Positions 15,809 through 63,634 of a DNA stretch of 64,000 nt are shown here, in pieces. The position numbers and the translations under genes were made by a program. How positions within the stretch are numbered: position 1 is the stretch's first letter; each line of letters starts with the position of its first letter. The notes beneath the pieces are model-generated. The model was given only the letters and a program-made list of their open reading frames with translations. It ran no database searches and was not told the DNA's origin. Source of the stretch: Aliidiomarina sanyensis. Lineage in GTDB: Bacteria > Pseudomonadota > Gammaproteobacteria > Enterobacterales > Alteromonadaceae. The stretch lies in NCBI RefSeq assembly GCF_003987175.1, contig NZ_PIPM01000002.1, positions 186,001-250,000 on the forward strand. Reading direction: 5' to 3'.

Positions 15809-18410
15809 TTTCTTCCTTATACTCTGGCAACTGTGGCATCAAGGACCGGAGGAAATTGCCCAGGCGCTCTAATAATGTAAAGAGGGGCAACATATACGGT
15901 GCAAACTGCTTTGCCATTCGCTTGTACCCTCGTAATCCAATCGCAATCACTTCGCGAAAACTTTTCATCGGACGCTCTTGTTCTTCCATGCTCCGCCAAC
16001 CGACCCAAGCATCGGCGCGTGAGAAGGTGGACCGCAAAAATGCTTGTTCATTCTCGATGCCCTCAAACTGAAACAGCACACCGATCGATTGGTCCCGTCG
16101 ATTTACAATTTGCGCTTTGAATGCGTGCTGTTCGAGCCCATCGGCCAACAAGATTCGCACCACATCACCGGTTTCCAAGGGGCAACTCTCGGGAACTCGT
16201 AAGCCTGCTCCTGTATCGGAGTAATCAATGAGATCGGCCTGAAATACGTGCTCTGATGAGGTCATAATCGAGATCCGGCGCTCAACGCGGATCCGATGTG
16301 AGGAGCGCACCTGTTTGGCTTCCTCCGCAACCGCCACGGCCCCACCTAAAATAATTAGGTTATAAGTGACCCAAACGAGGTTCAATACCACGGTTAAATA
16401 CTCATCGCTCGGACCCGTCAGCAGTCGCCACACGCCAAATCCAAACCCGAGTAAACTGAGCAGCACCAAAATCACATAGGGCCGCGACACATCCCAATCA
16501 AAATAAGTACGTTCTGTAATTCCGCCCTTTGCTGTCACATTAAATTTGCCATGTTTTGGGAAAAAGAGAGCAACGGTGGTGGGTTTCAAAATATACCAAG
16601 ATAAAACAGTTTCATACATTTCAGCCCAGAATGAATGACGGAATCGGCCTTGAGTCCGTGAGTTTGTCAAATAGGCATGAATAATGTGGGGTAACGCATA
16701 CATAGCAATCATAATGGCCGGAGCAAACACGATATACGCATGCAGTAACAGGAATGCCAAGGGGGCAAGCATAAAAATCAAGCGCGGTAAGCCATTCAAA
16801 AAATACAGCATCGCGTTCGCGTAACAAATCCGTTGCCCAAGATTAAGACCTTTTCCACGCAACGGATTATCCAAGCGAAAAATTTGCGCCATACCCCGCG
16901 CCCAACGCATTCGTTGACCGATATGGGCAGATAAGCTCTCGGTCGCAAGCCCGGCTGCTTGCGGAATATTGAGGTACGCGGAGGTATACCCGAGTCGATG
17001 CATTTTTAGCGCGGTATGTGCATCTTCCGTCACCGTCTCGACAGCTATTCCACCAACCTCTTCCAAGGGTCCTCGCTTCAGGACCGCACAAGAACCGCAG
17101 AAAAAAGACGCATTCCACATATCATTGCCGTCTTGAATTAGGCCATAGAACAACTCGCCCTCATTCGGTTTATTCCGAAACATCGAGAGATTCTTTTCAA
17201 ACGGGTCTGGTGAGAAAAAGTGGTGCGGGGTTTGGACCAGCGCTAATTTGGGCTCTTCCATAAACCAGCCCATGGTGAGCTGTAAGAATGAGCGAGCCGG
17301 AATGTGGTCACAATCAAAAATGGCAATGTAATCGCCACTGGTCTTTTTTAGGGCATGATTCAAATTTCCGGCTTTTGCATGCGAGTTATCCGGTCGAACC
17401 ATGTAATTCACCCCATTTTCTTGCGCAAACAGGGCAAACTCTGGACGCCGACCGTCATCGAGCAAATACACCCGAAGTTTGTCTTGAGGCCAATCCATTG
17501 CGAGCGCTGCCAAGACAGCGGGCTTTACGACATTTAATGGCTCGTTATAGGACGGAATATAAATATCGACAGTGGGCCATTCTCTTGGGTTATCTGGGAG
17601 GCGCGCAACTTTTCGCTCGAGAGGCCAAATCGTTTGGATATATCCAAGAATCAAAATTGACCATGCGTAAATTTCAGCACTAAGAAGAATCAGGCTCAAC
17701 AAGGTATCTAAGGGGATATCCCAGTTAATCGTTTGAGTCACACGCCAATACAGGTAACGGGTACTTACCAAGACCGAAAGGACCACCATCAGCAGCATGG
17801 CGCCGCGTTTTTGGACATCACGAACCCAAAGCGCGACCCCCCAAAAGAACAGCAGCATGACAGCCTGGGATGCAGCATCCATCGGTAGGGTAATCGTGAG
17901 CGCCACAAGAAATGCCGCGAGCATCGTCAGTCCAACACGAATCAAGGGCGTGTTAAGCCAATTGTAATGACTGACTTCGCCAAAAGCGTGAATAACTGAG
18001 GTCGCTTTTTGTGTCAAAAAAGGGGCAACTTTGTGATTAACCAGAGAGGTTCCTGAACGATGTGCTCGTCTAAACACGTTGCTCGTTTCTTTGAAAATAC
18101 GCCGATTCGTGGCGGGTTCTTCATCGGGCGATTTGACAAAAACTAACCACATCAATTGAATGAAAATTCTGAGCGGATCTAAGGGTTTCAACCGTGAAAA
18201 GTCGACCTGAGGAAACCAGTAGCGCAACGATTTTGATGTCTCCTGCGGCTCGGAACCGCTCGCACTGATGGCCTGCGCGTGAGCCCGATCGCGCGTGAAA
18301 TCACTCCGAAACAGCAACACTTCCGAGTACAAGCCCATGAGGTGCAGCGTCGCTTGAACGCGCGTCATGGTTTGTCGGGCTTGTCGCCACTGGAAGTGCA
18401 GCATGTTCAT
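15798..18410 (-). CDS. bcsA: BcsA cellulose synthase catalytic subunit (GT2 plus PilZ)
   Basis: Polymerises UDP-glucose into cellulose and pushes it through the inner membrane. In the 870-residue form all GT2 motifs are present: DDG at 318-320, DCD at 366-368, TED at 461-463 and QRMRW at 499-503. The C-terminal PilZ domain has the c-di-GMP motifs RSSHR (702-706) and DxSxxG (729-734), so synthesis should need cyclic di-GMP. Helices flank the catalytic domain on both sides. I start at 18410 because the ATG overlaps the bcsQ stop (TAATG) and GGAG precedes it. A frame extension to 18476 lies inside bcsQ and looks spurious. Confidence 0.96.
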   Translation of the reverse strand: MNMLHFQWRQARQTMTRVQATLHLMGLYSEVLLFRSDFTRDRAHAQAISASGSEPQETSKSLRYWFPQVDFSRLKPLDPLRIFIQLMWLVFVKSPDEEPATNRRIFKETSNVFRRAHRSGTSLVNHKVAPFLTQKATSVIHAFGEVSHYNWLNTPLIRVGLTMLAAFLVALTITLPMDAASQAVMLLFFWGVALWVRDVQKRGAMLLMVVLSVLVSTRYLYWRVTQTINWDIPLDTLLSLILLSAEIYAWSILILGYIQTIWPLERKVARLPDNPREWPTVDIYIPSYNEPLNVVKPAVLAALAMDWPQDKLRVYLLDDGRRPEFALFAQENGVNYMVRPDNSHAKAGNLNHALKKTSGDYIAIFDCDHIPARSFLQLTMGWFMEEPKLALVQTPHHFFSPDPFEKNLSMFRNKPNEGELFYGLIQDGNDMWNASFFCGSCAVLKRGPLEEVGGIAVETVTEDAHTALKMHRLGYTSAYLNIPQAAGLATESLSAHIGQRMRWARGMAQIFRLDNPLRGKGLNLGQRICYANAMLYFLNGLPRLIFMLAPLAFLLLHAYIVFAPAIMIAMYALPHIIHAYLTNSRTQGRFRHSFWAEMYETVLSWYILKPTTVALFFPKHGKFNVTAKGGITERTYFDWDVSRPYVILVLLSLLGFGFGVWRLLTGPSDEYLTVVLNLVWVTYNLIILGGAVAVAEEAKQVRSSHRIRVERRISIMTSSEHVFQADLIDYSDTGAGLRVPESCPLETGDVVRILLADGLEQHAFKAQIVNRRDQSIGVLFQFEGIENEQAFLRSTFSRADAWVGWRSMEEQERPMKSFREVIAIGLRGYKRMAKQFAPYMLPLFTLLERLGNFLRSLMPQLPEYKEENDG

Positions 18411-19180
18411 TAGGATGCTCCGTGGGGCTGTGTTGCATCGGTATGGTCGTGCTGAGCTAAGTATCCAATCAGCCACAGGGCGAGCGCGTCATAATCACGC
18501 GCAGCTTGGGCCTCGTACTGATAACTGACCAAAGGTTGCTGTTTGGCAAAGGCTTCTGCCACGTGTTGATCACGATGAATCACCACCGGCACGAGGCGGT
18601 CTCTGTGGATCTCCGATTGCAGAAACACCAACATATCGTTCGCAAGCTGTAAGTGCGGCGCGACACCATTGATGAGAATGCGTGCCCGGCGGCCAGATGC
18701 CTCTTGCTGAGGCATGCGATCGCGTTCAAATGCGAGAAGTGCAGGTACCGCCCTCGGTTCCGGCTGGATAACGTGAATCATCAGATCGGCATGGATATCG
18801 AGCCATTCTCGCAAGGGACCGGGTGCTGCAGGCGCATCGACCACTAGAATGCGCTCTTTGGTGGCCAAGATGGGTTCCATGCGTTGTGCGAAGGACGCTT
18901 CAAATCGCGCTCTTTCCTGCACACTGCGCGCAACACCCATTGGCATAAACGGATATCCCTCATGGGTCTCGAGCACCGAATTCACCAATGGCCCCGGTTG
19001 ATTGACTAGGCCCTCAAGCTGCTCGAGGGGCATGCCAAATAACAAGCCAAGGTGATTCTGCGCATTGAGGTCCAGCGCGATGGTTCGCACGGCCATCTCA
19101 TTGAGCGCGACCGCCAATCCTGCCGCAACGCTTGTAGCTCCGACTCCCCCGCAGAGACCTTCGATGCCGACTACTCGCAT
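18410..19180 (-). CDS. bcsQ: BcsQ MinD/ParA-like protein of cellulose synthesis
   Basis: A 256-residue protein of the MinD/ParA fold that helps place or assemble the cellulose synthase at the cell pole in enterobacteria. The P-loop region is CGGVGATS (10-17): both the signature lysine and the second lysine of a normal deviant Walker A motif are missing. E. coli BcsQ is also irregular here, so this fits the family. VVDAPAAPG near 140 corresponds to the Walker B / switch II strand. It overlaps bcsR upstream by 10 bases and bcsA downstream (TAATG). Confidence 0.9.
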   Translation of the reverse strand: MRVVGIEGLCGGVGATSVAAGLAVALNEMAVRTIALDLNAQNHLGLLFGMPLEQLEGLVNQPGPLVNSVLETHEGYPFMPMGVARSVQERARFEASFAQRMEPILATKERILVVDAPAAPGPLREWLDIHADLMIHVIQPEPRAVPALLAFERDRMPQQEASGRRARILINGVAPHLQLANDMLVFLQSEIHRDRLVPVVIHRDQHVAEAFAKQQPLVSYQYEAQAARDYDALALWLIGYLAQHDHTDATQPHGAS

Positions 19181-53877: not shown

Positions 53878-54573
53878 TCAAGCGACTTTGGCTCGAATAC
53901 GTTTGATCGCTTGGCTGTGAAGTTGTGAGACCCGTGACTCGGTGACCCCAAGCACGGCACCAATCTCTTTCAAGTTAAGCTCTTCTTGGTAATACAACGC
54001 CATGACGAGCTTTTCTTTTTCTGGGAGTGCACCAATCGCATCGGCAATCAAATGCCGTCGCTCAGCACTAAACAATGCATCCGCAGGCGAATCATAGGCG
54101 CCGTTGTCTGATGCTGCGTCATGATGATCCGTTACGACTTCATCATACGACAAGACAAGACCATTATTTGTGTCATGTAGGAGCTTGTGATATTCCTCAA
54201 GTGGCATCTCAAGCGCAGCGGCAATCTCGCGCTCTTCCGGTGGACGTCCCAATTGCTGTTCGAGCCGACGGACGCAGGCTTCGACCTCTCGTCCAGACCG
54301 CCGCACACTCCGCGGAAGCCAGTCGCGAGAACGCAACTCATCAATCATCGCGCCGCGAATCCGTTGATGGGCAAAGGTTGAGAACGCAACACCCGCTCGC
54401 GCATCAAATCGCGTCAAGGCATCGAGCAACCCCTCAAGGCCCGCTTGAATCAAATCATCTAAATCAACGCCCGCAGGGAGCCGAACCTGCAAAGACAAAG
54501 CTTGCCGGCGGACGGTGGGGTAATATTGCTTGATCACGGCGTCGCGATCGAGTTTGCCCTGCGCTGTATACAT
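53878..54573 (-). CDS. fliA: Flagellar sigma factor FliA (sigma-28)
   Basis: Directs RNA polymerase to late flagellar genes. The 231-residue protein shows region 2 (DLDDLIQAGLEGLLDALTRF and STFAHQRIRGAMIDELR), the conserved DWLPRSVRR, region 3 (LGRPPEEREIAAALEM) and region 4 with the helix-turn-helix NLKEIGAVLGVTESRVSQLH. E. coli FliA is 239 residues. GGGAG lies 12 bases upstream. It is the last gene of the flhBAF unit. Its probable target promoter lies upstream of motA in this same window. Confidence 0.96.
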   Translation of the reverse strand: MYTAQGKLDRDAVIKQYYPTVRRQALSLQVRLPAGVDLDDLIQAGLEGLLDALTRFDARAGVAFSTFAHQRIRGAMIDELRSRDWLPRSVRRSGREVEACVRRLEQQLGRPPEEREIAAALEMPLEEYHKLLHDTNNGLVLSYDEVVTDHHDAASDNGAYDSPADALFSAERRHLIADAIGALPEKEKLVMALYYQEELNLKEIGAVLGVTESRVSQLHSQAIKRIRAKVA

Positions 54574-54610: not shown

Positions 54611-55147
54611 TTATGCGCGCTGAAGTACCAAAAGTTCAATTTGAAAAAAATCCCGCGCGATTTGTTGAACATTATTTACGAGTCCACGCCGGGACTGCAC
54701 CGGAGGATGCATAAGCAACATCCGAGGTGTCTTGCTGCACCGATGCTGTAAATCTTTGAGCGTATGATAAGCTCGCTGAAATCCCTGTACGTCCGTATCC
54801 AACCACAGTGCCCACCGGCCAAATCGTTGCGCATACTCAAGAAAATCCTCGTCCAATGGACTGCGCACAACAATATTCCATTGGTTCGGATCCCCTACCC
54901 ACTGTCGGCCTTCCTGATGATAGCGCAGGATAGCCTCGCTCGCATGTGTGGCAACCTCCGTGGAATACGGGTGGGCAATCACCAACAAATTCTGGGTTTT
55001 CTCACGGGAACGATCCGATGCTGAGGCACGCGAGCCACTTGGTCCACTCTCACTGGCTCTCTGAGTGTTTGCATGAGGCGCTTCAGACTTACTTGCCGCA
55101 GCCCACGCACGCAGGCCCGCCGCTTGATCTAGTTCTTGATTCGTCAT
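54611..55147 (-). CDS. FlhG-like FlhF activator without a P-loop
   Basis: A 178-residue protein in the slot where the MinD-like ATPase FlhG normally lies between flhF and fliA. Its N-terminus ELDQAAGLRAW (5-15) matches the DQAxxLR helix by which FlhG/YlxH activates the FlhF GTPase. A Ser/Ala-rich linker (16-50) follows, then about 125 residues whose predicted strands (NLLVIAHPYS, NIVVRSPLD, WALWLDTDV, RMLLMHP, IELLVL) recall a shrunken MinD fold. No GKGGVGKT Walker A is present in any frame, so ATP-driven MinD-type control should be absent. It overlaps flhF by 4 bases (ATGA). I infer a remodelled or eroded FlhG. Confidence 0.7.
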   Translation of the reverse strand: MTNQELDQAAGLRAWAAASKSEAPHANTQRASESGPSGSRASASDRSREKTQNLLVIAHPYSTEVATHASEAILRYHQEGRQWVGDPNQWNIVVRSPLDEDFLEYAQRFGRWALWLDTDVQGFQRAYHTLKDLQHRCSKTPRMLLMHPPVQSRRGLVNNVQQIARDFFQIELLVLQRA

Positions 55148-57372
55148 GCCATCACCCCTGCGTTCGCTTGTGCTGCATCATCATGGCGCAAAATAGCGAG
55201 GGTTGCGCTTGCCTCCAACATTTGTAGAACACCCGAAAGCAACTTCGTTGTATCATGACGCCCCCGCCGACCCGAGTAGTCAAACAACTGATGACGAATC
55301 TGTGTGCCGTTTTCGGTCGGGTCTTGCTGAACTCGAATAACGAAATTTGCAATCAGTACGCCGAGATACACCAAGTCGGGTGTTTGCGCGTCGGCCCCTA
55401 CCATGGTTTGTAAAGCGCGCACTGCCTGTCGGCTTAAGCTCGCCAATTCGTCGATCGCCAATTGTTCCAGTAACAGCTGTTCGGTGAGTTCGCGTGTTTG
55501 TCCTTTGGGGCTCAGCCAATGGCGGCGCACGAGCGTTGCCTTGCGCTCGGAGGCTTCAACAAGGCCAAACCATAAGTCCATCGGCTCTTCGGTATCGGGC
55601 AGCACAACATCAGCGCGCTGAAGTTGACAGCGCACCGCTTCGCCGCGATAGACTAAACGGTGCTCTTGAGGTGGCGTCATACTCGCATTGACCCGCAACG
55701 CAGCCTGCGCTTTCCCAGCGTGGATGACCCGGTGATTTCGATTGATCACAGCAACCCATGGAGCGTTGAGTGCCGCACGTTGGGCAGGTTCCGGTAGTGC
55801 AGCACAAATGTGGTAACTCGCGTGGAGGTCTTTCGCAACCGCTGCCATATCCAGCGACTCGCCCTGAGTTTGGTGAGGATCATTGACAATCGGGAAGTAT
55901 CCCAGATACCCATGATTGTTGATCGGCATCGGCGGCAAGTGCCACTTACAACTAGCAACCGGCGTGGATTTCGGCCAGCTAATCCCCGCCACATTTTGCG
56001 TGTCGAGTAGTTCCCGTGCCTGTGCGTGAATGGGTGTAAGATCAAGCCCGACCCCCGTTTGTGCGCTTTTCAACACGGCCGCTTGGGTAAATTCCAACAA
56101 CTGAAACCAAGGCGTATATTGATGCACTCGTTGTCGCAGTTGTTGTAGCCCCCGTGGATTCACCCGCGTGTTGCTTGAGACAGCGGGTTGGGATGTGGAG
56201 GCAGCCACCGAGGTTGCGATGCTCGACCCGCCCCACAGCTCTTCAAAAATATCATTTTCGGCCACAATCCGAGCCGTCGCTTGGACAAAATACTTTGCCA
56301 ATTCGGCCGGATCCGCTAACTCGAGGTCTTCTGGCACGCGTTGGCCATAAGAGACAAAGTGCACACACAAATCGTGCTGGATTATGGTATCGAGAACCGC
56401 TCCAAGACTCGCTGCCTCATCCTTTTTAGTGACAATGCAGTCATTAATTTCATGGCCTGACTCGGAGGCCACTGCCCGAAAACGCTCCACCACTTCATAC
56501 AGCGTTTCCCGTTGGCTTGATGCGTTCAGCAGCAAAACAAGCCGCGTTGCACTTGGTGCACCTGCCTTAGCCTGAAGTTGGGCAATGCGCTGTGTAAGGC
56601 GTTGGTCGCGCTGGCTCATCCCAACGGTATCGATTAGCACCAAACGTTTCTGGCTCAGTTTTGGCGCGAGTTGCTCAAGCTTATCGTCCTCACCGAGCGC
56701 GACCATTTCCACACCCAGGAGTTCGGCATATATTTTAAGTTGCTCCTGTGCTCCCACACGGTAACTGTCCGTGGTCAACAACAGCAGCCCTTCCGGTCCA
56801 AACTGCATAACATAATGTGCAGCCAACTTGGCAGTCGTCGTGGTTTTTCCTACGCCGGTTGGGCCCACAAGGGCAATGACACCATGCTCCGCAAAGAGCT
56901 CGACGGGCATCTCGGGCGTTCGAAGGTGCGACTGCACGTAGTCGTGTAAAATGGAGGATGCGGAACGAGTCAGGTCGCTTACATTATCGAGCGCCTTTTT
57001 CGTTAAGCGACCACTCAAGCCGCCCGCTTGCGCCCAGCGCAGAAGATCGTGACGCATATCGGCGCGAACCGTGGTGATGGCCCCTGACTGCTCAGGCTTT
57101 AACATGGAACGCATCTGCTCGACTTCTTGCAATAAACGCTGCGCCAGTCGAGCGAAATCACCGGCTTCGCTGTTGCTCGCTCCAGCGTCTGAAGCGACTG
57201 GCATTGTTGTCGAATCCTGCGATGCCTGAGACGCTTCATCGGCCATCGCCATGACCTCGATGCCCTCCTCTGTTTGACGGGAGGATAGAATCATCGCATC
57301 AGGCCCCAATTTAGCTCGGACCTGCCGCATGACATCGCGTTTGTTGATACCAATAAAGCGCATCACACTCAT
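55144..57372 (-). CDS. flhF: FlhF SRP-like GTPase with long C-terminal extension
   Basis: Sets flagellar placement and number. The B domain (1 to about 100) begins MRFIGINKRDVMRQVRAKLG. The NG core (about 105-375) has GPTGVGKTTTTAK (170-182), DSYRVGAQEQL, IDTVGMSQRD and TKKDEAASLGAVLD, and ends at YGQRVPEDLELA (342-353), where most FlhF proteins stop soon after. Here another 365 residues or so follow, with no domain I recognise, including a basic, beta-rich part (WVAVINRNHRVIHAG...) and a helical end. Total length is 742 against about 400-500. It lies 3 bases into flhA upstream and is coupled to the FlhG-like gene downstream. Confidence 0.93.
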   Translation of the reverse strand: MSVMRFIGINKRDVMRQVRAKLGPDAMILSSRQTEEGIEVMAMADEASQASQDSTTMPVASDAGASNSEAGDFARLAQRLLQEVEQMRSMLKPEQSGAITTVRADMRHDLLRWAQAGGLSGRLTKKALDNVSDLTRSASSILHDYVQSHLRTPEMPVELFAEHGVIALVGPTGVGKTTTTAKLAAHYVMQFGPEGLLLLTTDSYRVGAQEQLKIYAELLGVEMVALGEDDKLEQLAPKLSQKRLVLIDTVGMSQRDQRLTQRIAQLQAKAGAPSATRLVLLLNASSQRETLYEVVERFRAVASESGHEINDCIVTKKDEAASLGAVLDTIIQHDLCVHFVSYGQRVPEDLELADPAELAKYFVQATARIVAENDIFEELWGGSSIATSVAASTSQPAVSSNTRVNPRGLQQLRQRVHQYTPWFQLLEFTQAAVLKSAQTGVGLDLTPIHAQARELLDTQNVAGISWPKSTPVASCKWHLPPMPINNHGYLGYFPIVNDPHQTQGESLDMAAVAKDLHASYHICAALPEPAQRAALNAPWVAVINRNHRVIHAGKAQAALRVNASMTPPQEHRLVYRGEAVRCQLQRADVVLPDTEEPMDLWFGLVEASERKATLVRRHWLSPKGQTRELTEQLLLEQLAIDELASLSRQAVRALQTMVGADAQTPDLVYLGVLIANFVIRVQQDPTENGTQIRHQLFDYSGRRGRHDTTKLLSGVLQMLEASATLAILRHDDAAQANAGVMA

Positions 57373-59453
57373 CGGTTCTCTCCAATTAATGCGGTGATTT
57401 TCAGCGTACGGTCATCGGGGATTTCCGCTTGGGACATGACCACCAGGAAGCGCAGCTGACGACGTAAGAAATGCGCAAGCAACGGGCGTAAACTATGTTG
57501 AACCACTAAGACGGGTGGTTCGCCCATGGCTTCTTGCTGCTCAAGCGCCCGTTGGGCTTGTTGTTGCAAAGTTGCCGCCAATCCAGGCTCTAATGCTCCG
57601 CCGTTATTCAGCGCTTGCATTAGAACTTGCTCGAGGCGCACATCGAGCCCAATCACATGCAACTCCCGCGCTCCACCGAACCATTTCTGAGTAATGGCAC
57701 GACCAAGCGCAATTCGGATCTGTGCTGTCAGCTCGTGAGCATCTGCTTGTTGGCCTTCAAATTCAGCGAGAGTATCGAAAATAGTGCGCATATCGCGGAT
57801 CGACACTTCCTCATCCAACAAGTTCTGCAAGATCCGTTGCAGAACTGCAAGGGAAACACATTTCGGCACTACATCCTCGACCAGCTCTTTGCTCTCTTTT
57901 GCCAGCTTATCCACCAACTGCTGAACTTCTTGGCGACCAAGGAGCTCCGGTGAGAAACGTTGCAGCAAGTGGTTTAAATGCGTTGCTACCACAGTGCTTG
58001 CATCGACAACCGTGTATCCATAAATCTGTGCATGCTCTCTTTCTGCCGCATCAATCCATACCGCTTCGAGGCCGAACGCAGGATCCTTGGTTTCGATTCC
58101 CTGTACTGTTCCCGTGACTTGGCCCGGATTAATTGCTAACCATTTATCTGGGTAGATTTCTGCGCGCCCAACTTCGCCGCCTTTTAGCGTGATGAAATAG
58201 GTATTGGGCGTGAGTTCTAGGTTATCTCGGATATGGACCACCGGCGGTAGGAACCCTACCTCTTGAGCAAACTTCTTACGCACCGATTTAATGCGCCCAA
58301 GTAACTCCCCTTGCTGACGCTCATCGACCAAAGAGATCAATCGATGCCCGACTTCCATGCCCAAGGTATCCACCAACTGAACATCGTTCCAGGACGCCTC
58401 CGGGGATTCGAACTGAGCAATCGGCGCACTGTCCTCCGTCACATCAAGGGCAACTTGTTTTTGCTTCTGATGCATCCGCCACGCGAGGAACAACAAGATT
58501 CCAGTAAACATCAGAAAGACAAAGTTTGGCATCCCCGGTACCATTCCGAGCAAACCAATCACACAGGCAGCCAAGACCATCACGCGTGGATTGACGAACA
58601 ACTGGCTGACCATTTGCTGTCCGACATCTTGGTCTGTGTTGACGCGCGACACGGTGACACCCGCTGCCGTCGAAATTACAAGCGCTGGAATCTGCGCAAC
58701 CAGACCATCACCAATTGCCAACAATACATAGGTCCGTCCCGCATCGCCGAAGCTCATATCATGCTGCATAGTCCCTATGAGTAAGCCGCCGAGAATATTC
58801 ACCACCATGATGACGAGGCCTGCGATCGCATCCCCGCGAACAAATTTACTTGCACCGTCCATCGAGCCATAGAAATCCGCTTCTTGCGCCACTTCGGCAC
58901 GGCGCTTGCGAGCGTCTTCTTCGCCAATCAATCCGGCATTTAGATCCGCATCAATGGCCATCTGCTTCCCTGGCATGGCGTCCAACATAAAGCGTGCGCC
59001 CACTTCTGCAATCCGGCCGGCACCCTTGGTGATAACCATGAAGTTAATGATGACCAAAATAAGGAATACGACCAGGCCTACCGCAAAATTACCGCCCACC
59101 AAAAACTGACCAAAGGACTCAATCACCTTCCCAGCCGCGTCGCCGCCTTGATGTCCTTCCATTAATACAATCCGCGTGGACGCAACGTTGAGCGACAAAC
59201 GCAACAGGGTCGTAAACAGGAGAACTGCCGGGAACGCGGCAAAATCGAGCGGTTTCTCAGCAAACATGCTGACCAACAACACCATGAGAGCGAGCGCAAT
59301 GTTAAAGGTAAATAGCATATCCAAGACAAACGGCGGCAATGGCAGAACCATCATCGCCAAGATCATCAAGATCAACACCGGCCCGATGAGCAAATGGAGC
59401 TTATCGTTAGAAATCTTGCCTAGTTGTTGTAACGAAGGCGCAAAGCCTTTCAT
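57369..59453 (-). CDS. flhA: Flagellar export gate protein FlhA
   Basis: The large membrane subunit of the flagellar type III export gate, using proton flow and docking export chaperones. The 694 residues comprise eight N-terminal helices (to about 310) and the cytoplasmic FlhA-C domain. The FHIPEP signature region is present as PLDFAAFPAVLLFTTLLRLS (residues 68-87), and GDAIAGLVIMVVNILGGLLIG with NFVFLMFTGIL are typical. Length equals that of E. coli FlhA (692). It overlaps flhF by 4 bases. An 80-base gap separates it from flhB. Confidence 0.97.
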   Translation of the reverse strand: MKGFAPSLQQLGKISNDKLHLLIGPVLILMILAMMVLPLPPFVLDMLFTFNIALALMVLLVSMFAEKPLDFAAFPAVLLFTTLLRLSLNVASTRIVLMEGHQGGDAAGKVIESFGQFLVGGNFAVGLVVFLILVIINFMVITKGAGRIAEVGARFMLDAMPGKQMAIDADLNAGLIGEEDARKRRAEVAQEADFYGSMDGASKFVRGDAIAGLVIMVVNILGGLLIGTMQHDMSFGDAGRTYVLLAIGDGLVAQIPALVISTAAGVTVSRVNTDQDVGQQMVSQLFVNPRVMVLAACVIGLLGMVPGMPNFVFLMFTGILLFLAWRMHQKQKQVALDVTEDSAPIAQFESPEASWNDVQLVDTLGMEVGHRLISLVDERQQGELLGRIKSVRKKFAQEVGFLPPVVHIRDNLELTPNTYFITLKGGEVGRAEIYPDKWLAINPGQVTGTVQGIETKDPAFGLEAVWIDAAEREHAQIYGYTVVDASTVVATHLNHLLQRFSPELLGRQEVQQLVDKLAKESKELVEDVVPKCVSLAVLQRILQNLLDEEVSIRDMRTIFDTLAEFEGQQADAHELTAQIRIALGRAITQKWFGGARELHVIGLDVRLEQVLMQALNNGGALEPGLAATLQQQAQRALEQQEAMGEPPVLVVQHSLRPLLAHFLRRQLRFLVVMSQAEIPDDRTLKITALIGENR

Positions 59454-59533: not shown

Positions 59534-60697
59534 CTATGCGCCCCGAGCCCGGTGATGGACTTTGCCAGCAGCCATGGCTTCAGGAACTTCAAGTTGTTTC
59601 GGTTTTAACGGTGCTTCACCGCCCTCTTTGCGAACCTGCTTCAAACGAAACGCCCAAGCGAGAACTTCGGCGACCGCGGTGTACAGCGCTGCAGGAATCT
59701 CCCGATCAATATCCACATTGAAATACAGGGCTCGCGCCAACATGGGCGCTTCTAATCGTGGAATGCGATTTTCTTCCCCGAGCTCGCGAATCTTTGCTGC
59801 GATCGCATCGGTTCCCTTTGCAATAACCCGCGGCGCACCCATGCGCTGATCATCGTATTTAAGCGCAACCGCATAGTGCGTTGGGTTGGTGATGATGACA
59901 TCAGCCTCTGGAACCTTCGTCATCATCCGTGCGCGCGACATTGCTTGCTGTTGTGAGCGAATCCGCGCTTTTACATGCGGGTCCCCTTCGGTTTCTTTGT
60001 GCTCGCGTTTGACCTCTTCTTTGGTCATCTTCAATTTTTTGGCATGGCTGTATAACTGATATGGCACATCAATCAGCACCACCACAATCAAAGTCAGCAC
60101 CATTAACACAGCGGCCTGTGCTGCAAGCTGCAACGCATTGCTCACCGCTTGCTGTACCGGTTGCTCCATCAAGCCAAGGTATTCCCCACGCTTGGAGAGC
60201 AAAAACCACACGAGAACACCCCCTACCAAGGTCGTTTTTGCTATGGCTTTCCCCAATTCAGCCAATGCTTGGCTGGAGAAGATTCGCTTCAGGCCCTTTG
60301 CTGGGTTCAACTTTGATAGCTGAGGCTTCATGCCTTTCGCTGAAACAACCCAACCACCCAACAAGGCCGGTGCTGTGAGTGCCAACACCACCATCACCGC
60401 AAACAGGGGAATCAATGCCCATAATGTCTTTTGCGCCAGCTCAAATACATTCGCAAGCATTGGCATGGTCTCGAACGCTTGCCTGCGCTCAAACAAAAAT
60501 GCCCCTTCCATGACCAAGCCAAGCTGCTGATAAAGCATGCTGCTCAAGCCCCAAAGTGTAATGACGCCACCGAGCAGTAAAACGAAGGTTGTGAGCTCAC
60601 GCGATCGGGCCACCTGCCCCTCTTCCCGCGCTTTTTGAAGCCTTCGGGGTGTGGCGGGTTCTGTTTTTTCTTGGTCGCTACTGTTCTGCTCTGCCAT
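59534..60697 (-). CDS. flhB: Flagellar export switch protein FlhB
   Basis: Membrane component that switches export from rod/hook to filament proteins. The 387 residues comprise four helices (about 36-55, 85-110, 150-167 and 190-212) and a cytoplasmic domain that cuts itself at the conserved NPTH motif (271-274, in VIITNPTHYAVALKY). The N-terminus DQEKTEPATPRRLQKAREEG is the family hallmark. It starts the second half of the cluster, 129 bases after motB, separated by a terminator, so it must have its own promoter; I see no clear FlhDC box. Confidence 0.96.
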   Translation of the reverse strand: MAEQNSSDQEKTEPATPRRLQKAREEGQVARSRELTTFVLLLGGVITLWGLSSMLYQQLGLVMEGAFLFERRQAFETMPMLANVFELAQKTLWALIPLFAVMVVLALTAPALLGGWVVSAKGMKPQLSKLNPAKGLKRIFSSQALAELGKAIAKTTLVGGVLVWFLLSKRGEYLGLMEQPVQQAVSNALQLAAQAAVLMVLTLIVVVLIDVPYQLYSHAKKLKMTKEEVKREHKETEGDPHVKARIRSQQQAMSRARMMTKVPEADVIITNPTHYAVALKYDDQRMGAPRVIAKGTDAIAAKIRELGEENRIPRLEAPMLARALYFNVDIDREIPAALYTAVAEVLAWAFRLKQVRKEGGEAPLKPKQLEVPEAMAAGKVHHRARGA

Positions 60698-60826: not shown

Positions 60827-61783
60827 TTAGTCGGAGTCGGAGTCGGAGTCATCTTGCTCGAAGAAACGCTCCGGTAACTCTCCCGAGTCGATAATTTGTT
60901 GGATTTCCCGATCTTGCTGAAGCAGTCGCTCAAACTCCTCCGCATCACCTGGAAAAAGTCCTTGGCGACGAATGAACTCAGCACTCACGGTGGTATGCAG
61001 TACAAGGGTGATTCGGCGATTCATTGGGTCTCTTGGATCGGCACCCTCGAGTGGGACGCGATCCGCAACACCCGCGACTGAAATCAGTCGGCTTGGCTCA
61101 AAACCACCTGCAATCAATTCTCGCCGCGACGCATTCGCACGATCCGCGGAAAGCTCCCAGTTGCTATAGCCTGCATCGCCACCGGAGAATGGGATGCTAT
61201 CCGTATGGCCGGTAATTGTGACTTCGTTTGGCACTTGATTTAGCAGCGGCGCAACCGTTCGCAACAGGCGACTCATGTATGGTGCAACTGTGGTGCTCCC
61301 GAGTTGGAACATCGGTCGTTGCTCACTATCAAGCAATTGAATGCGTAAGCCTTCACGGGTCATATCAAAGCGCATCTGAGATTGCAGCGCCCGGAGTTCA
61401 GGATCTGCCTCAATGGCTTGTTCAATCTGCCGTTGGATATTTTGAAAGTGGCGACGGACATCCGATGGGCGGGTCTCTCGGCGCAGATCAATTCGCGCGC
61501 GCTCACCTTCCATGTGCATTGGATCCGGCCCTCCGCCACGAATTGCACTGGTGCTCGCCGTTGCGCGGTCGCCCCCGGTCATCGCGACCACAAGCGGCGT
61601 TCGGAAGTACTCCGCAATACTTTCGCGGGCATCGTCCCCGGCCATCGAAATAATCCACATCACTAAGAACAACGCCATCAACGCAGTCATAAAGTCAGCC
61701 AGCGCGATTTTCCAACTCCCGCCGTGGTGTTTTTTCACCACCTTTTTGCGGCGGATGATGATGGGGCGATGTTCTTCAGCCAT
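60827..61783 (-). CDS. motB: Flagellar motor stator MotB
   Basis: The stator unit that couples proton flow to rotation and binds peptidoglycan. The 318 residues have a basic N-terminus, one membrane helix (about 28-47) with the proton-accepting aspartate D30 in ALADFMTALMALFLVMW, then a periplasmic linker and an OmpA-like domain with TITGHTDSIPFSGG and NWELSADRANASRREL. D30 and the ALADF context indicate proton rather than sodium drive. The C-terminus ends in a DSDSDSD tail encoded by a GTCGGA tandem repeat (60831-60851). It follows motA by 23 bases. Confidence 0.96.
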   Translation of the reverse strand: MAEEHRPIIIRRKKVVKKHHGGSWKIALADFMTALMALFLVMWIISMAGDDARESIAEYFRTPLVVAMTGGDRATASTSAIRGGGPDPMHMEGERARIDLRRETRPSDVRRHFQNIQRQIEQAIEADPELRALQSQMRFDMTREGLRIQLLDSEQRPMFQLGSTTVAPYMSRLLRTVAPLLNQVPNEVTITGHTDSIPFSGGDAGYSNWELSADRANASRRELIAGGFEPSRLISVAGVADRVPLEGADPRDPMNRRITLVLHTTVSAEFIRRQGLFPGDAEEFERLLQQDREIQQIIDSGELPERFFEQDDSDSDSD

Positions 61784-61806: not shown

Positions 61807-62673
61807 TTACGACTCGGCCGGACGATTGCCGCGCACGTGGTCTTCCAATTCATTAAACGAGGGCCGTTCTGAGGTATCGAGTGCTTTACGTCCAAACTCC
61901 ACCGCAAGCTGCGGGGCGTAGCCGCCCATACTTGCGAGAAGCGTGACGCGAATACATTGCAATACCTTTACCGCCTCCGCGACTTGACGCTCAATGCGCG
62001 CAGCAACCGGGTTGATATAACCATAACCCATCAAAATCCCGAGGAAGGTTCCGACCAACGCATGGGCGATCATCTCACCCATAACATCTGGGGTCGCATC
62101 GGCGTAGGTCAGTGCTTTTACCACGCCCAATACCGCAGCAACGATACCGAACGCCGGCATCGCATCCCCCACTTTATGCAGTGCCTCTGCAGGAACGTGG
62201 GCCTCTTCTTCGAACGTTTCAATTTCATGCAGCATGAGCTCATCGAGCTCTTGAGGGTTCATATTGCCGCTGATCATCAAACGCAGGTAGTCGGTCAAAA
62301 ATGCCACCATCATCGGGTCTTCAAGAATAAGGGGGTGCTCCTGGAAGATGGCGCTATCGTTCGGGGCTTCAATATCACGCTCTACCGCAAGCATCCCATC
62401 ACGACGCATTTTATTCAGGAGTTTATAAAGAACAGACATGAGCTCCATGTAGAGCTGCTTATTGTATTTTGTGGTGCGCTTGAGTTTTTTCGATGCGTTC
62501 ATGGTGGCTTTAATGCCCTTCATGTTATTCGCAGCGATAAAGGCCCCAACGCCTGCACCACCAATCATCAGGATTTCAAGCGGCTGATAAATGGGCCCAA
62601 GGCTTCCGCCCGCTAGCACATAGCCACCGAACACGGAAAACGTCACAACTAGAAAACCAATGACAATCAGCAC
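61807..62673 (-). CDS. motA: Flagellar motor stator MotA
   Basis: Stator subunit forming the proton channel with MotB. It has four helices in 288 residues: VLIVIGFLVVTFSVFGGYVL (1-20) begins helix 1, and AFGIVAAVLGVVKAL near 170 is the proline-bearing region of helix 3. EIETFEEE and the loop with charged residues (about 85-130) contact FliG. I start at the GTG at 62673, with GAGGG 8 bases upstream and a match to the E. coli MotA N-terminus. The longer frame from 62727 would start at the promoter itself. It is driven by the sigma-28 promoter at 62731. Confidence 0.95.
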   Translation of the reverse strand: MLIVIGFLVVTFSVFGGYVLAGGSLGPIYQPLEILMIGGAGVGAFIAANNMKGIKATMNASKKLKRTTKYNKQLYMELMSVLYKLLNKMRRDGMLAVERDIEAPNDSAIFQEHPLILEDPMMVAFLTDYLRLMISGNMNPQELDELMLHEIETFEEEAHVPAEALHKVGDAMPAFGIVAAVLGVVKALTYADATPDVMGEMIAHALVGTFLGILMGYGYINPVAARIERQVAEAVKVLQCIRVTLLASMGGYAPQLAVEFGRKALDTSERPSFNELEDHVRGNRPAES

Positions 62674-62730
62674 GTCTGAACCCTCGCTTTCGAAAAACCA
62701 ATGTAGAGCTTCGACTCCACGACACATCGG

Positions 62731-62763: not shown

Positions 62764-63327
62764 TCAATCGCGAGAATTCACGGCTTTTGAGGCCGCTTTT
62801 TTGGTTTTCTTAGGTTTACCGGGCTTGCCGGCACGTGATGGAGGTTGACAAATTCCGCAGACATAATCGTCATCGGGCGTATGTGCGTGATTCACAAAAT
62901 CAAGCTCACAATGTGTGCAGCGAGACAATTGGAACATATTGCTTTCGAAAAAACGCAGCAGTGTCCAGGCTCGAGTAAGCCCGAGAACCTGTTCACCCGA
63001 GGTATTTTGCACGTGCTCATTGTACAACCGATAGGCTTTGGTAAACGCCGTCATGCGATCCAAACCTTGCTCGTCATGCAAATTTCGGTACATGGAATAG
63101 AACAGGGAGGAGTGGATATTCGGAAGCCATGTTAAGAACCAGTCGGTTGAAAACGGCAACAAACCTTTCGGGGGAGACTCCCCTTTCACTTCTTTGTAAA
63201 GCCGGACAAGTCGACCGCGGTTGAGATTAACTTCGGACTCCAATACTTGTAGACGAGCGCCAAGCTCAATCAGCTCGATTGCCAATTGAACTTGGTTCAT
63301 CTCATCTAGAAGTTTTTTATCACTCAT
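62764..63327 (-). CDS. flhC: Flagellar master activator subunit FlhC
   Basis: With FlhD forms the FlhD4C2 activator of flagellar genes. The 187-residue protein has the core SFEL-like FFESNMFQLSRCTHCELDFV and the zinc-binding cysteines C-x2-C (CTHC) and C-x2-C (CGIC). The N-terminal helices begin DEMNQVQLAIELIELGARLQ. The C-terminus is Lys-rich (GKPKKTKKAASKAVNSRD). It starts 4 bases after the flhD stop, so the two are co-translated. Confidence 0.95.
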   Translation of the reverse strand: MSDKKLLDEMNQVQLAIELIELGARLQVLESEVNLNRGRLVRLYKEVKGESPPKGLLPFSTDWFLTWLPNIHSSLFYSMYRNLHDEQGLDRMTAFTKAYRLYNEHVQNTSGEQVLGLTRAWTLLRFFESNMFQLSRCTHCELDFVNHAHTPDDDYVCGICQPPSRAGKPGKPKKTKKAASKAVNSRD

Positions 63328-63331
63328 TGGC

Positions 63332-63634
63332 TTAACGCGTTGATGCCATCAACATTGCCAGGTGAGTTTGCGACAAACCGGTCTCTCGACGGTTCCGCAA
63401 AATATGTGCTAACTGCTCGGCATTTTCGGCACATGGGCGGAGCACAAACTGACCTTGTGTCGCGAGCCAGGTAATCTCACGAACTGACAAAGACTCAATT
63501 AACTCCGCTAGTTCAGCGGTAAGCTTTAATCGAAATATTGCGGCCGCACGATCTTCTGCAATCATTTTTTGGACCAACAATAAGTATGCAAGATTAAGCT
63601 CTTGGAACTCTTCGAGTGTGCTTGACTTTTCCAA
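63332..63634 (-). CDS. flhD: Flagellar master activator subunit FlhD
   Basis: Partner of FlhC in the FlhD4C2 complex. The 100-residue helical protein begins with LEEFQELNLAYLLLVQKMI and has the LRPCAENAEQLAHIL region near 67, where the cysteine joins the disulfide of the dimer. E. coli FlhD is about 116 residues. The start is a TTG at 63634 with AGAGGAG 7 bases upstream; no ATG fits better. First gene of the flagellar block. Confidence 0.93.
   Translation of the reverse strand: MEKSSTLEEFQELNLAYLLLVQKMIAEDRAAAIFRLKLTAELAELIESLSVREITWLATQGQFVLRPCAENAEQLAHILRNRRETGLSQTHLAMLMASTR

Follow-up and report, generated by a model that had tools for sequence, protein, structure and literature searches.

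What occupies the flhG slot of a flagellar gene cluster when the occupant has no P-loop? Several jobs have been ascribed to FlhG: it dimerises in an ATP-dependent manner, binds the membrane and FlrA, and activates FlhF. In Aliidiomarina sanyensis, this slot holds a gene, here called X, that lies on the minus strand at positions 54611..55147 of the window (the whole 64,000-nucleotide stretch of DNA analysed) and encodes 178 amino acids from its ATG. A sequence-only reading of the same DNA had described it as coupled to flhF, followed by fliA, carrying DQAAGLR at residues 7-13 (55109..55129, minus strand) and lacking a Walker A motif. All of this was confirmed: neither GxxxxGK[ST] nor one relaxed form of it occurs in any of the six frames.

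All genes of the cluster lie on the minus strand in the order flhDC-motAB-flhBA-flhF-X-fliA. Pfam identified flhD (63332..63634, start codon uncertain), flhC (62764..63327), motA (61807..62727), motB (60827..61783), flhB (59534..60697) and flhA (57369..59453), and Pfam together with NCBIfam identified fliA (sigma-28; 53878..54573) and flhF (55144..57372), whose 742-residue product has an SRP-type GTPase domain with the sequence GPTGVGKTTT. The X ORF shares four bases with the flhF ORF, and fliA starts 37 bases downstream of X. The flhDC genes, previously proposed to control the switch, indeed lie upstream in the same direction and may exert this control. Within X, structure prediction places a helix at residues 9-18, with low confidence. 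It is followed by a linker that is variable as judged from column identity (residues 19-51; 54995..55093, minus strand) and by a remodelled alpha/beta core of the MinD/FlhG type (residues 52-176; 54620..54994, minus strand), delimited by the structural model, a fold search and hhalign. Taken as a whole, the best explanation, to which we assign a probability of roughly 0.7, is that X is a reduced FlhG acting as an ATP-independent activator of FlhF.

Proposed activity and conservation of X

X would neither bind nor hydrolyse ATP and still switch FlhF on. As in ordinary FlhG, its DQAAGLR helix would insert a glutamine into the FlhF GTPase dimer and thereby elicit GTP hydrolysis. Its MinD part would be missing three pieces, namely the Walker A loop, about 75 central residues (an estimate based on predicted secondary structure) and the membrane-targeting part at the C-terminus. 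The compact, nucleotide-free domain that remains may hold the helix in position, probably through contacts with FlhF or some other component of the flagellum. Loss of the ATPase may be tolerable because the flagella are run by FlhDC and FlrA/FleQ, the partner of the ATP-bound FlhG dimer, is gone; FlrA binds FlhG solely in this ATP-bound, dimeric state (PMC11236974). In B. subtilis, the hydrolysis-dead FlhG variant D65A has a normal hook distribution, with no discernible effect, and a Q8A exchange in DQAxxLR comes close to an flhG deletion; from such point mutants, the authors inferred that FlhF stimulation is the central function of FlhG (PMC12327844). The D65A protein is still a constitutive dimer, so that this exchange does not equal a loss of ATP binding. 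The glutamine of DQAxxLR has been described as a stand-in for the catalytic RNA base of SRP RNA (PMC12826062, in the portion consulted). SRP RNA, a functional analogue, is the trigger of an SRP-family GTPase, as the motif of X would be, but it is an RNA and not a protein helix. For X itself, neither biochemical nor motility data came to light.

X belongs to a family with a conserved genetic context. In 58 related genomes, a protein search found nine matches at E <= 0.1, comprising the gene itself, seven clear homologs from the same genus and one further match that was dropped (three stops, E 0.098); DQAAGLR is invariant in the alignment of these eight genus members. A pattern search of a named genome collection yielded 66 loci, the seven genus homologs among them, in Aliidiomarina, Pseudidiomarina, an 'Idiomarina sp.' MAG, Halomonas, Billgrantia, Onishia, Vreelandella, Alcanivorax, Alloalcanivorax, Mangrovimicrobium and four Pseudomonas. 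Together with the window, this makes a set of 67 sequences of 131-233 amino acids, counted from the start codon nearest the motif; the open frames of canonical FlhG, by comparison, span 280-325 amino acids. DQA[AS][GS]LR is present in 67/67 members and a Walker A pattern in 0/67. One of the two search patterns included DQAAGLR, which biases the first of these counts, and DQA[AS][GS]LR is still found in all ten members that do not match this pattern. The next recognised gene is FlhF upstream of X in 65/66 loci and FliA downstream in 64/66, and the three misses (L079, L056 and L093) sit at contig ends. X is thus conserved, and it is neither a pseudogene nor an assembly error.

When 369 genomes of the class were searched, a profile of eight X sequences gave four matches at E <= 0.01 (the gene itself, G420 and, weakly, G248 and G321), and a 67-row profile gave ten at E <= 1, of which the gene itself and G420 were clear. 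The weak matches G248 and G352 turned out to be canonical FlhGs, G327 (L118 / L126) was recognised as a diverged X, and the loci of G321, G258 and G397 (L114, L119 and L121) contain no frame with the motifs; L122-L124 fell outside the inspected set. A tblastn search of plasmid records with X gave no match. Two carriers or their relatives have been described with respect to motility: A. halalkaliphila, which carries X (L046), is reported to be motile, yet electron microscopy revealed no flagellum (PMC9558577, in part), and Pseudidiomarina are reported to have polar or peritrichous flagella or to be non-motile (PMC6193092, in part).

Conservation is unevenly distributed along the protein. Across the 67 members, mean pairwise column identity reaches 0.99 in the motif (residues 7-13), 0.47 in the core and 0.19 in the linker (0.185, covering residues 19-50). 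Nevertheless, the core at residues 52-176 is retained with conserved residues of its own, and the earlier claim that only the FlhF-activating helix is kept proved too strong. In particular, tryptophans W83, W90 and W115 are invariant in X, whereas the sole invariant tryptophan of the canonical FlhG alignment, W259, lies in the C-terminal part that is missing from X. Moreover, the core, about 125 residues of alpha/beta structure, is under purifying selection in the closest pairs: in the 14 pairs with dS up to 0.40, which share sequences and hence are not independent, its dN/dS has a median of about 0.11 (range 0.06-0.43). A wider set of 316 pairs with dS of 0.05-1 gave a median of 0.45 and a maximum of 1.1, values that we distrust because most such pairs are distant.

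Together with the long FlhF that accompanies X in all eight of its genomes in the genus, the core-specific tryptophans and the selection acting on the core could mean that this MinD-derived domain is the main selected part, and that X works as a scaffold or as an assembly factor, for instance for the C-ring or the FlhF extension, with FlhF activation as one task among others or a relic. We consider this possible but on balance unlikely, given that conservation is much higher in the motif than in the core and that the diverged X of G327 (L118), which shares a family code with the Halomonas-like G420, has kept an intact DQASGLRQW in front of a core that is barely recognisable.

The further divergence of G327 and the disappearance of both the P-loop and the C-terminus could also be taken to portray X as a decaying pseudo-FlhG on its way to complete loss. 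Such an endpoint exists, since enterobacteria such as E. coli, with their transferred flagellar system, lack both flhF and flhG (PMC12826062, consulted portion). However, the motif and an open frame have persisted in 67/67 members from several families, synteny is kept and dN/dS is low in the closest pairs, which makes decay very improbable. The enterobacterial system shares the master regulator FlhDC with the X systems but differs from them in that the latter keep flhF and a reduced flhG. Whether the two genes were lost from the transferred enterobacterial system or were never part of it is an open point in the consulted portion of PMC12826062, and X may represent an intermediate that bears on it.

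Relationship of the core to FlhG

That the core of X derives from FlhG is supported by profile comparison. With the helix excluded, the core (residues 48-178) matched a profile of 30 betaproteobacterial FlhGs in hhalign with a probability of 91.5, an E-value of 8.4e-7 and a score of 47.8, and none of 60 column-shuffled controls scored as well (best 22.1). Agreement of this significant alignment with the structural reading is limited to the C-terminal ~85 columns; the first third of the core pairs with a central part of FlhG and not with its P-loop region. Matches to canonical gammaproteobacterial FlhG were weak, with probabilities of 2.4 for the eight-member alignment of X and 22.7 for a larger one, both with smaller sets, and, against 46 canonical sequences, of 49.1 for the whole of X and 2.2 for its core. 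Since the eight-member alignment gave nothing, the larger alignment and the betaproteobacterial FlhGs were needed to reveal the relationship. The 46 canonical FlhGs were extracted by a P-loop or motif pattern from 47 loci (20, with one duplicate dropped, plus 27; the FlhF loci L033, L036, L037, L038 and L040 were left out), each of which gave such a gene.

The fold match of the predicted structure is weak. The core is modelled confidently, with 11/13 ten-residue blocks from residue 51 onward scoring 90 or more. In a Foldseek search of the PDB, no match fell below E 1e-3, and the top hit was FleN (5j1j_B; E 2.7e-3, probability 0.99, TM-score 0.40/0.30, rmsd 11 Å), with flavodoxin second; among the top 33 were also the FlhG entries 4rz3 and 4rz2 and additional FleN chains. 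No convincing relative of X emerged when solved structures were searched by profile. Likewise, Pfam and NCBIfam scans of the 67 members returned no FlhG/MinD match, and the MinD/ParA families PF01656 and PF13614 had no match at E <= 1; scattered matches to other families were judged unrelated, and a SulA-like match in one member (E 0.14), which might have indicated a different P-loop-less fold, was set aside. In the opposite direction, the X profile matched the canonical FlhG of G248, a member of another family, over the motif, the linker and the first strand (E 0.003).

Compared with FlhG, X may thus have retained the first strand and helix, lost about 75 central residues and retained four later strands, and everything that follows these strands in FlhG, including the membrane-targeting part, would be absent. 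The modelled protein ends four residues past its last strand (172-174) and has no C-terminal membrane-targeting sequence. Judged from predicted secondary structure, residues 58-65 (54953..54976, minus strand) would mark the site of the FlhG Walker A loop and contain no GKT; this placement rests on the assumption that the first predicted strand and helix are equivalent in the two proteins, and the hhalign alignment does not provide it. What X shares with FlhG/FleN/YlxH is the slot between flhF and fliA, the N-terminal DQAxxLR and the C-terminal half of the MinD-type core. It differs in lacking the Walker A pattern with its MinD-type signature lysine, in lacking the C-terminal membrane-targeting part and in its apparently shortened centre. 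The earlier assignment of X to the flhG slot as an FlhG derivative without a P-loop but with an intact FlhF-activating motif is thus borne out by the family and the core match alike, and a MinD/FlhG-derived core at residues 52-176 is supported.

A graded version of the same change is seen in betaproteobacteria. Of 60 genomes sampled, 44 had a match to a betaproteobacterial FlhG query (E <= 1e-8, ParA-like proteins included), and the loci of the 30 best of these 44 were read (L155-L184, Burkholderiales). All 30 FlhGs have kept DQAxxLR and sit next to flhF, with fliA found in 28/30. At the Walker A lysine position, K is found in 12/30, 9 of them within GK[ST], and 1/30 has the MinD-type signature lysine, as compared with both lysines in 46/46 canonical gammaproteobacterial FlhGs. 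A quick tree of 76 FlhGs required at least six changes of lysine state; long branches were joined in it, and we do not rely on it. One example is the annotated FlhG on plasmid pBGF2 of Burkholderia glumae BGR1, which reads GGPVGVGCT and DQAEGLR. Like X, this eroded protein has kept the motif and replaced the Walker A lysine, but unlike X it still has the centre and the C-terminus (270 aa). In B. glumae, flhBAFG shares a transcript with fliA, and flhF is expressed in an FlhDC-dependent manner (PMC3885665, in part). Strong FlhC (E below 1e-70) accompanies 7/21 decayed and 3/9 intact betaproteobacterial FlhGs, so that Walker A decay is not tied to FlhDC in this group and a loss of Walker A in the wake of FlhDC finds no support there; in another two decayed cases, FlhC is represented only by a distant relative. 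In the X family, evolution seems to have split FlhF stimulation from the other jobs of FlhG, and to have done so by degrees in betaproteobacteria.

It is accordingly highly unlikely that X is a small Rossmann-type protein unrelated to FlhG whose DQAxxLR-like N-terminus arose by convergence, a notion that would fit the missing library match and the low scores that X obtains against canonical FlhG in fold and profile comparisons but is contradicted by the core profile match that no shuffle equalled, by FleN as best fold, by the shared flhG slot and by the betaproteobacterial forms with partial decay at the same site.

Flagellar systems of the genus

The distribution of X within the genus follows that of whole flagellar systems. 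Among 17 genomes, eight have X and nine gave no X match. The FlhF frame measures 715-771 aa in the X genomes versus 443-486 aa in the other nine, in each of which flhF is followed by a gene for canonical FlhG with GGKGGVGKT. Strong FlhC (E about 1e-78) is encoded by the same eight X genomes; FlhD was searched in the window genome. The FleQ domain was found in 0/7 X genomes versus 7/7 non-X genomes, in a sample of 14/17 that left out G014-G016. In the genomes tested, X, strong FlhC and long FlhF thus exclude FlhG, FleQ and short FlhF. Strong FlhC is likewise seen in the wider set of X carriers (all 21 X genomes tested, plus G327 and G420) and in 0/27 canonical gammaproteobacteria, one of which has a distant relative at 3e-19. 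As a separate observation, two canonical-FlhG genomes of the genus (G009 and G015) encode a distant FlhC relative with E about 5e-15.

The C-terminal 444 residues of the window FlhA have a median identity of 73% to halomonad FlhA (47/48 loci) and of 49% to the FlhA of the X-free genus genomes (9/9). As FlhA is closer to halomonads than to X-free congeners, whole flagellar systems differ within the genus, and X is not a decayed form of the local FlhG. Homologs with an intact P-loop at this position in the same genus had been proposed as a sign of decay or of an assembly error. They do occur, in 9/17 genomes, but they belong to a different flagellar system, which indicates system replacement and neither decay nor assembly error.

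A second, full-length FlhG was sought with a profile of 19 canonical FlhGs. In the genome of the window, it retrieved nothing beyond ApbC/Mrp (E 2.2e-8) and a protein of the ParA type (E 4.5e-9), whereas E-values of about 1e-170 were obtained in the X-free genus members G003, G005 and G008; the search, which the sequence-only reading had called for, thus found no complete FlhG elsewhere in the genome. Canonical FlhG is absent from all eight X genomes of the genus (best E 2.5e-12). Among 24 genomes reached via X loci, 21 had best values between 2e-10 and 1e-22, and three Pseudomonas reached ~3e-130; a full FlhG besides X in these three fits a second flagellar system. In P. fluorescens F113, a second flagellum is driven by FlhDC (PMC5031763, in part).

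Other P-loop relatives in the genome of the window include an ArsA/GET3-type and a BcsQ-type protein. A BcsQ-type ATPase is encoded in the window at 18410-19180 on the minus strand (TIGR03371, E 2.3e-41, just under the cut-off) and may mark a neighbouring cellulose synthesis cluster. A MinD-level match (E about 1e-19), obtained with the FlhG profile and not with a MinD profile, was seen in G005 and G008, and in none of the eight X genomes or G003.

The C-terminal extension of FlhF

The long FlhF that accompanies X owes its length to a C-terminal extension (residues 372-742; 55147..56259, minus strand), which is predicted with a mean pLDDT of 89.7 and a pTM of 0.86 and is confidently folded from about residue 405 onward. 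Six entries of Tn5 transposase are the only PDB matches of this model below E 1e-3 (1.3e-6 to 8.5e-6, probability 1.00; next match E 0.027). They span nearly the whole extension, with TM-scores of 0.40-0.45 by query and an rmsd of 8-10.5 Å. The sequence-only reading had suggested that the ATPase function might have moved elsewhere. No replacement was found, and a transfer into the FlhF extension in particular is unsupported by the predicted fold, which resembles Tn5 transposase and not MinD.

We treat the Tn5 likeness as a predicted resemblance at the level of the fold, with descent unproven. The NCBIfam IS701 transposase model matches 2/55 FlhF extensions (best E 3.2e-4; the one inspected scored 19 bits, against a cut-off of 150), Pfam returned no transposase match for the extensions, and profile searches of solved structures gave no convincing relative. 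When the extension was compared by hhalign with a profile of five IS4 transposases, the result was no better than shuffles (3/40 as good). Judged from the columns of the 55-row alignment, a DDE catalytic triad is not conserved: W, R and A occupy the three invariant columns, D/E reaches 49/55 in the most acidic full column, and in most acidic-rich columns the window protein has a non-acidic residue. A tblastn search of plasmid records with four extensions gave nothing significant.

It is tempting to speculate that the FlhF-FlhG switch has been rebuilt as a whole, with FlhG turned into an ATP-independent activator and FlhF gaining a catalytically dead domain of the Tn5/IS4 fold, such that spatial and numerical control, formerly the task of a MinD-type ATPase, would now depend on a domain domesticated from a mobile element, together with its small partner. 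This wider scenario is tentative, and we regard it as doubtful. Among titles and the beginnings of abstracts in the open-licence literature, with longer result lists covered in part, none describes an FlhG without a P-loop or an FlhF domain resembling a transposase, and the consulted portion of a 2025 review (PMC12826062) mentions neither. Both thus appear undescribed in the open-licence literature searched, which is not proof of novelty. Natural versions of X as short as 131 aa offer small proteins for exploring what the helix can do by itself. In the class as a whole, FlhF was matched at E <= 1e-60 in 180/369 genomes, and, among the matches listed, frames above 650 aa are confined to G000, G327 and G420, all of which have X or its diverged form.
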